Shown here: positions 38,494 through 40,457 of the stretch, piece by piece
Numbering within the stretch: position 1 is the first letter of the stretch
Layout of the letters: every line of letters starts with the position of its first letter
Origin: Betaproteobacteria bacterium
Lineage (GTDB): Bacteria > Pseudomonadota > Gammaproteobacteria > Burkholderiales > SG8-41
Direction: 5' to 3'
NCBI GenBank assembly: GCA_029863175.1
Contig: JAOTVX010000004.1
Location: 76,423-140,422, forward strand
Length of the DNA stretch: 64,000 nt
Made by a program: the position numbers and the translations under genes
The notes under the pieces: model-generated
Seen by the model: only the letters and a program-made list of their open reading frames with translations
Database searches by the model: none
What the model was told of the DNA's origin: nothing

Positions 38494-40173
38494 CTAGCCT
38501 GCGCAGCACGAGAGCTGCTCTATATCCTTGGTGAAGGTCTGCGCGCAGAGTTTCAATCCCTCGACCATGGTGAGATACGGGAAAAGCTGACTGGCAAGTT
38601 CATCGACCGTCATGCGGTTGCGAATCGCAAGCGCCGCCACCTGAATCAGTTCTCCAGCCTGGGCCGCCACCGCCTGCGTTCCGAGCAAGCGCCCCGTCCC
38701 TTCCTCCGCGACCAGTTTGATGAATCCCCGCGTATCGAAGTTGGCCAGGGCCCGCGGCACGTTGTCGAGCGTGAGGGTACGTGAATCGGTCTCGATTCCT
38801 TTCAACCGCGCTTCCGCCTCGGTAAGACCCACAGTCGCCACCTGCGGGTCGGTGAAGACCACCGCCGGCATGGTGGTGAGGTCGAGGGCCGCATCGCCGC
38901 CGGTCATGTTGATCGCGGCGCGGGTCCCGGCCGCCGCCGCGACGTAAACGAACTGCGGCTGGTTGGTGCAATCACCCACCGCGTACACGTCCGGCACACC
39001 GGTCCAAAGTTGGTCATCCACCTTGATCGCGCCGCGCTCGTCTAGCTTTACACCGATCGCTTCGAGATTGATGCCGGCGGTATTCGGGCGTCGGCCCGTT
39101 GCGACCAGCAACCGGTCACCCTTCACAGTGCCGGAACTGGTTTCAAGATGGAACAGCCCATCGCGGTGAGCGACGGAGCGCGTCTGGGTCTGGGTCAGGA
39201 TCTTCATGCCTTCGCCCGTGAGCGCCGCTTCGAGGGCATCGCCGATGGCCGGATCCTCCCGGAACAACACGTTGCTGCGCGCGATCATCGTTACCTCCGA
39301 CCCGAGGCGCAGGAATGCCTGCCCCAGCTCGGCGGCGACGATGGACGATCCGAAGATGACGAGATGCCGGGGCAGCGCTTCCGCAACCAGCGCATCGGTG
39401 GAAGTCCAGTACGGCGATTCCTTGAGCCCCGGCACGGGCGGTACTGCGGGGGAAGCACCAGTCGCGATTAACACCCGGTCGGCGTGTAACTGCGTCTCAC
39501 GACCGTCCGGCCGCTTCACAACCAAGGTGTGGGCGTCTTTGAAGCGTGCGAAGCCCTGCACCAGGTTGATGCCGGGGTTGCTCTCCACGATGTTCAGGTA
39601 CTTGGCAATCCGCAGTTCTTCGACGCGCTGTTGCTGCTGTGCGACCAGCGCGGCGCGATTCAGCTTCGCCGGGCGGCCTTCGATCCCTGAAAACGGGCTA
39701 GTGGCGTGGGTGTGCGCGACATGAGCCGCCTGGATCAGGATTTTGGAAGGCACGCAGCCAACGTTAACGCAAGTGCCGCCCACGGTTCCCGCCTCGATCA
39801 GGGTGACCTGCGCTCCTTCATCGACAGCCCGTATCGCCGCGGCGAACGCTCCGCTGCCGCTGCCGATGACTGCGACATGCAGACTGCTTTCGGCCCTTTG
39901 TTTCGACGGCGCCGTCTCGCCCATGGAGGGGGCGCGCACCGCGCTGCTGCCACGCGCAGGCGCGTCGAGCAATTTGGCGCCGTAGCCTTTGCTTTTGACC
40001 GCTTGGATCAAGGCGGACCCGGCGGTCCCGTCTCGGGTCTCGACCCGCGCCTTGCCCTCCGCGTAGGACACCTGTGCGGCAGTTACGCCTGGCACCGTGC
40101 CCAATACTTTCTCAACAGTTTGCGCACAGTGATCACAGGTCATCCCGGTCACGCGCATGGTGTACGAATTCAT
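38494..40173 (-). CDS. merA: Mercuric reductase with N-terminal HMA domain
   Basis: A 559-residue flavoenzyme that reduces Hg(II) to Hg(0) with NADPH in the cytoplasm. The N-terminal HMA domain has GMTCDHC (C13, C16). Then come the FAD motif VAVIGSGSGAFAAA, the redox-active GTVGGTCVNVGCVPSK, the second nucleotide site LVIFGSSIVAAELGQAF, and the C-terminal mercury-binding CC at residues 556-557 (LSCCAG). All key residues are cysteine here, in contrast to merP. ATG overlaps the merP stop (ATGA). Confidence 0.92.
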   Translation of the reverse strand: MNSYTMRVTGMTCDHCAQTVEKVLGTVPGVTAAQVSYAEGKARVETRDGTAGSALIQAVKSKGYGAKLLDAPARGSSAVRAPSMGETAPSKQRAESSLHVAVIGSGSGAFAAAIRAVDEGAQVTLIEAGTVGGTCVNVGCVPSKILIQAAHVAHTHATSPFSGIEGRPAKLNRAALVAQQQQRVEELRIAKYLNIVESNPGINLVQGFARFKDAHTLVVKRPDGRETQLHADRVLIATGASPAVPPVPGLKESPYWTSTDALVAEALPRHLVIFGSSIVAAELGQAFLRLGSEVTMIARSNVLFREDPAIGDALEAALTGEGMKILTQTQTRSVAHRDGLFHLETSSGTVKGDRLLVATGRRPNTAGINLEAIGVKLDERGAIKVDDQLWTGVPDVYAVGDCTNQPQFVYVAAAAGTRAAINMTGGDAALDLTTMPAVVFTDPQVATVGLTEAEARLKGIETDSRTLTLDNVPRALANFDTRGFIKLVAEEGTGRLLGTQAVAAQAGELIQVAALAIRNRMTVDELASQLFPYLTMVEGLKLCAQTFTKDIEQLSCCAG

Positions 40174-40457
40174 TTCCGTTCCTTCTTGAGCGTTGGCGGG
40201 TAGCCGGCGTCCTTGATTGCCTTGAGCAGAGCGTCAACATTAGTCTTCGCGTCGTCGAAGCTGACCACGGCTTCGGCTTTCTCGAGGCTGACGTCCGCTT
40301 TGGTGACGCCGTTGATTTTGGTTAAGGATCTCTTCACGGAGATCACGCACCCGCCTCACGTCATCCCCGACACCGAGAACGTAACGGTCTTTATTTCCGC
40401 GAACGCGGCTGTCGCGAAGAGTGCAGTTGCGATGAGGAACAAGGCGGTCTTTTTCAT
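40170..40457 (-). CDS. merP: MerP with in-frame UGA at the first metal-site cysteine (candidate selenoprotein)
   Basis: Reading through one UGA gives a complete 95-residue periplasmic MerP. It has a signal peptide (MKKTALFLIATALFATAAFA) and an HMA domain with SVSGMT-U-GGCVISVKRSL, where MerP has GMTCxxC. The domain continues to the normal end GYPPTLKKERK. The UGA is codon 34 (40356-40358). The gene is perfectly placed: GGAGGC inside the merT end, start 2 bases beyond the merT stop, and stop overlapping merA (ATGA). No other defect exists. Sec at this site would form a UxxC mercury ligand. A hairpin follows the UGA. The alternative is a single-base nonsense mutation, leaving no MerP. Confidence 0.85.
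40327..40344 (-). other. SECIS-like hairpin in merP
   Basis: In the mRNA, GAUCUC (+12 to +17 after the UGA) pairs perfectly with GAGAUC (+24 to +29). The six-base loop is CGUGAA. The second loop base is G at +19, within the window I recall for bacterial SECIS elements. Codons in both arms encode ordinary MerP residues, so the pairing is not forced by a repeat. Folded by hand only. Confidence 0.6.

Follow-up and report, generated by a model that had tools for sequence, protein, structure and literature searches.

A predicted selenocysteine at the first mercury-binding position of MerP in a mostly betaproteobacterial clade

In the 64,000-nucleotide stretch of DNA analysed here (the window, meaning that stretch at its full length), the merP gene of a mer cluster carries an in-frame UGA at the codon of the first metal-binding cysteine. 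This UGA is predicted to be read as selenocysteine (Sec), a reading to which we give a probability of about 0.88, and its product is likely a periplasmic MerP with a Hg site formed by Sec34-x-x-Cys37. Judged from sequence, such a MerP would likely hold mercury via selenium instead of sulphur. For Hg(II), selenolates are stronger ligands than thiolates. According to PMC2398784, most selenoproteins of known function are oxidoreductases; if the present prediction is true, Sec would here bind a metal, in a detoxification pathway that ranks among the best studied for metals, and the biological use of the strong Hg-Se bond would become testable, since a solved Cys version of the protein is available for comparison.

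Translation of the frame finds a single internal TGA in merP, at codon 34, the terminal stop being also TGA, and the motif around it reads GMT-U-GGC, in which the second Cys is kept and the first is replaced by UGA; the GMTCxxC motif of MerP would be complete if the UGA encodes Sec and Sec is accepted as a ligand. In a profile search with U given as C, the protein passed the MerP family model TIGR02052 with 103.7 bits against a cut-off of 92.55, and the HMA domain PF00403 was matched with 68.6 bits. The alignment to the solved MerP 1afi is free of gaps (query residues 23-91 to chain residues 3-71), which sets residue 34 over Cys14 and Cys37 over Cys17. The N-terminus is hydrophobic and ends in AFA, as judged by eye. 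The placing of the UGA at the first metal-binding Cys, already made in the initial annotation, is thus borne out by the translation in one frame, by the 1afi alignment and by the same TGA in the nearest relatives. The features of the region are collected in Table 1.

Table 1. Features of merP and of the surrounding mer cluster, in window coordinates.
Feature	Coordinates	Strand	Details
merP	40457..40170	minus	95 codons including the in-frame TGA, plus stop; translation, TIGR02052, PF00403
TGA, predicted Sec34	40356..40358	minus	aligned to Cys14 of solved MerP 1afi
TGC, Cys37, second metal ligand	40347..40349	minus	aligned to Cys17 of 1afi
Likely signal peptide, residues 1-20	40398..40457	minus	judged by eye from the translation
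SECIS-like hairpin	40327..40344	minus	6-bp stem, 6-nt loop CGUGAA separated from the UGA by 17 nt
merT	40459..40815	minus	PF02411 127.9 bits (cut-off 32.9); NCBIfam NF010314 143.3 (cut-off 150, slightly below)
merA with N-terminal GMTCDHC domain	38494..40173	minus	TIGR02053 582.8 bits (cut-off 454.45); start inside the merP stop (ATGA)
MerC-like membrane protein	38122..38484	minus	PF03203 34.8 bits (cut-off 27.6); NF010318 20.2 (cut-off 170, far below)
merR, divergent regulator	40885..41304	plus	TIGR02051 150.1 bits (cut-off 150.85, slightly below)

The gene is flanked by merT and merA, and the frames of merA, merT and merR are open. The initial annotation had described tight overlaps around merP in a cluster with merT, merA, merC and merR intact. 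The ATGA overlap of merP with merA agrees with this description, but one base stands between the merT stop and the merP start (TGA-A-ATG), without overlap; likewise, the open frames of merT, merA and merR were found as described, but the gene called merC encodes a protein that is only MerC-like by score. The ATGA overlap of merP and merA is present in the window and in two of the related loci described below, L002 and L003, and is absent in L007. Past merR, at 41862-41994 of the window (minus strand), lies a C-terminal remnant of a merP without its 5' half. In L001 the layout is swapped, with a merP remnant (14424-14513) ahead of merA, while its TGA merP is located elsewhere, adjoining a piece of the same neighbouring gene.

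In the proposed mechanism, SelB and Sec-tRNA would bind the hairpin that follows the UGA, the codon would be read as Sec and MerP would be exported to the periplasm, where Sec34 and Cys37 would capture Hg(II); the MerT cysteines would then receive the ion and deliver it to MerA for reduction. The likely advantage of a selenolate would be that it captures Hg(II) more tightly or more quickly. A different use of the same residue has also been considered, namely that Sec is inserted but that its value is redox and not tighter Hg(II) binding, since a selenenylsulphide could be reduced more readily in the periplasm. In a table of PMC2398784, selenoproteins with a redox motif usually have it in the form U-x-x-C; however, the protein is a MerP by family and has merT and merA on either side, so that a mainly redox role is rather unlikely, although it is the strongest of the competing readings. 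On the metal-ligand reading a further, doubtful step can be envisaged, in which selenium gates mercury resistance. Sec34 would capture Hg(II) in the periplasm as a dedicated selenolate ligand and, because the UGA precedes merA, whose start codon overlaps the stop of merP, the reading of UGA would also set the amount of mercuric reductase; in the resulting circuit of Hg-Se antagonism, mercury would tie up selenide and thereby feed back on its own detoxification. Contrary to such gating, the AAGGA that stands ahead of merA could let merA start independently of merP.

The predicted recoding signal is a SECIS-like hairpin with G second in the loop; the first 40 nt behind the UGA fold with -10.9 kcal/mol. 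A model of the bacterial SECIS (bSECIS) with four rules is given in the legend of Fig. 2 of PMC13188914, and the window hairpin agrees with all four as worded in that legend. When the rules of this legend were applied by script, 10 of the 11 TGA genes (window merP plus ten relatives) passed, versus 8 of 89 Cys genes, and all six stem pairs are kept in 10 of the 11 versus none of the 89. The gene that fails the script, in L004, keeps CGUG within its loop but refolds with a bulge. Codons +4 to +12 show a synonymous divergence of 0.22 versus 0.85 from codon +14 on, and dN/dS is 0.17 before the UGA and 0.20 after it; both parts of merP are under purifying selection. The Arg codon at +9 is the rare AGA in 10 of the 11 genes and AGG in one (L008), AGA making up 2.6% of the 688 Arg codons in 18 hand-chosen window genes. 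In L008 the stem pair is kept because the partner base changed together with AGG; this compensatory change is the one cell of covariation, and the same is reached by 40 of 500 shuffles. The z-scores of single-sequence folds are modest, from -1.27 to -2.39 for four merP hairpins and -1.77 in a separate test, and Rfam at gathering scores gave no match within the 64-kb window.

Relatives were sought in public genome contigs with the 61 residues after the UGA as the query, a choice by which neither Sec nor Cys is favoured, and at least 80 related loci were found. Among the best 80 listed, each of the nine nearest (L001-L009) carries TGA at the codon that aligns with the UGA, ten genes in total because L008 has two, and their identity to window merP is 78-87% over the part after the UGA. 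Eight of the nine come from metagenome-assembled genomes (MAGs) of Betaproteobacteria and L004 is labelled 'bacterium'; together they represent eight genomes (G001-G008), as L006 and L007 lie in one MAG. Over 103 aligned rows, which include HMA domains from other proteins, the aligned codon is TGC in 86, TGT in four, TGA in ten and ACC in one (L061, in a gapped alignment), two rows not covering the position. Reading both codons of the Cys pair at 71 loci gave Cys-Cys in 62, TGA-Cys in eight and Cys-TGA in one. The inspection of homologues for an aligned TGA, which the initial annotation had put forward as a check, turned up the codon in ten genes of eight genomes, plus a partial copy in a further genome, G444.

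Within G001-G008, all ten matches at 58% identity or more contain the TGA. The next match, at 56% over residues 22-87 and located in G007, has no stop, and the remaining matches in the eight genomes are at or below 44%, except for one short C-terminal piece in G001. A TGA merP was found in eight of the 74 genomes of the family of G003 (G001-G006, G008 and the partial one in G444), while G007, the home of L008, falls outside this 74-genome list. In the order to which G002 belongs, 245 of 399 genomes have a match at E <= 1e-8, and among the 30 loci and 11 further listed matches that were read, TGA at the first Cys occurs in G002 only, and L125 has TGA at the second. Of 4,462 matching plasmid records none exceeds 80% identity, the ten listed being at 49-63% and annotated as merP; viral contigs gave six loci, at 49-61% identity within the stretch that follows the UGA. 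In a protein tree of 68 rows and 92 columns, the 11 TGA rows group together, and a branch with 100/100 support sets them apart from all but two of the 57 Cys rows. The two exceptions, L076 and L078, are long rows with Cys that lie on the TGA side, so that two label changes are needed.

Upstream of the TGA merP, four of the related loci encode a membrane protein of 143-173 residues (L003 7450-7881, L004 7337-7840, L005 5279-5800 and L007 2269-2769), with a GC-x-TCP motif noted by eye, in place of a MerT of the window type; it is perhaps a further partner of Sec-MerP. A separate MerP-like sequence, L125 (G069:C10:87750-88100), has TGA at the second Cys (GMTCGS-U) with a hairpin behind it, in a genome where selA and tRNA-Sec are present. 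This single sequence possibly represents an independent Cys-to-Sec change.

These comparisons bear directly on whether merP could be a pseudogene, its UGA being either a sequencing error or a nonsense mutation that by chance hit the codon of the first Cys in a working operon. One base change suffices to turn TGC or TGT into TGA, and the degraded remnant past merR lies nearby; on the other side, eight other genomes contain between them ten further genes with this TGA, with the partial copy in G444 in addition, and both the dN/dS values and the constraint on the hairpin speak for a gene in use, which makes a pseudogene very improbable. Recoding rather than loss of function, the preference stated in the initial annotation, is supported by the shared TGA, the bSECIS hairpin, the low synonymous change and the purifying selection seen before as well as after the UGA, and further by a full-length Cys version of the protein and by Sec machinery in most of the relatives' genomes.

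At the protein level the clade is recorded mostly as fragments. A search of 5.8 billion predicted proteins, limited to 0.55 to 1.75 times the query length, returned 327 matches, and the best 120 of the 327 were examined. Among these 120, 118 are 55-61 residues long and start at most seven codons after the UGA position, and 89 have exactly 58 residues; P0004 is the fragment of window merP itself. Gene callers therefore cut such genes. The fragments show that the frame is closed upstream, the closing codon not being visible at the protein level. The consequence is an annotation fault in which the merP of this clade is cut at the UGA and listed in pieces that lack the metal site and have about 58 residues, and mercury-gene surveys can thus miss or misjudge such genes. 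Two full-length proteins differ at the position in question: P0002 has Cys (GMTCGGC) and forms a natural Cys/Sec pair with the UGA genes, and P0003 has Trp (GMTWGAC), which may come from TGG, or from TGA under the translation table of its source.

It could be argued from the annotated pieces that the UGA is a true stop and that the working protein is a short downstream product, started from a GTG after the UGA. Such pieces are indeed what gene callers annotate in 118 of the 120 listed matches, but most of them have 58 residues and start after Cys37, and for this reason have neither the signal peptide nor the first strand nor either ligand; selection before the UGA (dN/dS 0.17) and the hairpin would moreover be left unexplained, and the short product is accordingly a most improbable explanation. 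Equally hard to credit is a UGA read as another amino acid, for example Trp, by suppression or a changed code, since the Trp of P0003 is set against the ends of 10 of the 18 hand-chosen window genes, in which TGA is the ordinary stop and hence a general one, against the cost of a metal ligand, and against a hairpin and a Sec machinery that this reading leaves unexplained.

A selenocysteine MerP is a kind already known, as the 2008 survey of the GOS marine metagenomes (PMC2398784) lists in its Table 2 'Mercuric transport protein MerP' as a selenoprotein family, with two sequences, both from one sample, and with a count of zero for Cys homologues in the set. The belief expressed in the initial annotation, that MerP-like proteins have appeared in metagenomic selenoproteomes, is confirmed by this entry. 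Compared by the table entry alone, the GOS protein and the window MerP share a name and the predicted Sec status; the entry is given without motif, operon or organism, whereas the window MerP stands in a mer cluster on a chromosome-like contig, with close relatives known from genomes. With Cys MerP (TIGR02052; 1afi/1afj/2hqi, 1osd) the window protein shares the family, over the cut-off, the fold as judged by sequence and the place between merT and merA, but its first ligand is encoded by UGA (predicted Sec) and is followed by a SECIS-like hairpin.

Two protein models of predicted selenoproteins also come close in kind. The UxxU metal-binding (seleno)protein NF041115 is similar in its HMA-type domain and in Sec as a predicted metal ligand; as a home for the window MerP it was rejected, with 68 bits versus 95 and with two Sec residues there versus U-x-x-C here. 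The MerT/CopZ fusion-like selenoprotein NF045683 is likewise a mercury or metal transport protein with a predicted Sec, and was rejected at 62.1 versus 375 bits, merT and merP being separate genes in the window. A 'putative mercuric transport protein' with PF02411 and a C/SxxU motif is described in PMC13188914; in the NF045683/PF02411 type, which is a fusion, Sec falls in the C/SxxU place, unlike the U-x-x-C of the window. Reviews of 2022 and 2026 list the MerT-family 'putative mercuric transport protein' and the UxxU protein, and the word MerP is absent from their main texts. In the open-licence literature no paper was found that deals with Sec in a MerP encoded within an operon, or with mercury binding by such a protein. 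What is new here is an operon-anchored, mostly betaproteobacterial Sec-MerP clade, well supported and of a kind scarcely described.

The capacity to insert Sec was examined in the genomes with a TGA merP. Among G001-G008, selA was found in six, selB over the cut-off in six, tRNA-Sec above 70 bits in seven and selD in seven. In G001 (1.7 Mb) selD alone is clear, with no selA and no selB over the cut-off, G004 is without selA and selB, and a tRNA-Sec looked for in G444 gave none; the missing Sec genes in these three may be gaps of incomplete MAGs. In eleven genomes with a Cys MerP, selA, selB over the cut-off and tRNA-Sec above 70 bits were found in five each. As selA is nearly universal in the family of G003 (67 of 74 genomes), its co-occurrence with Sec-merP is a weak test. 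ARAGORN reported no tRNA within the window; in G456, the genome nearest to the window when a protein judged by eye to be MutS-like is compared (86%), selA and tRNA-Sec are present. In six genomes (G001, G003, G004, G005, G006 and G008) selD itself has an in-frame TGA, so that selenophosphate synthetase is likely a selenoprotein there too. The window also contains a second candidate selenoprotein, a DUF411 protein at about 3605..3126 (minus strand) with TGA at 3467-3465 and the motif U-G-C-C, which matches PF04214 with 88.7 bits after the TGA and has a hairpin of -21.7 kcal/mol (z -2.67).
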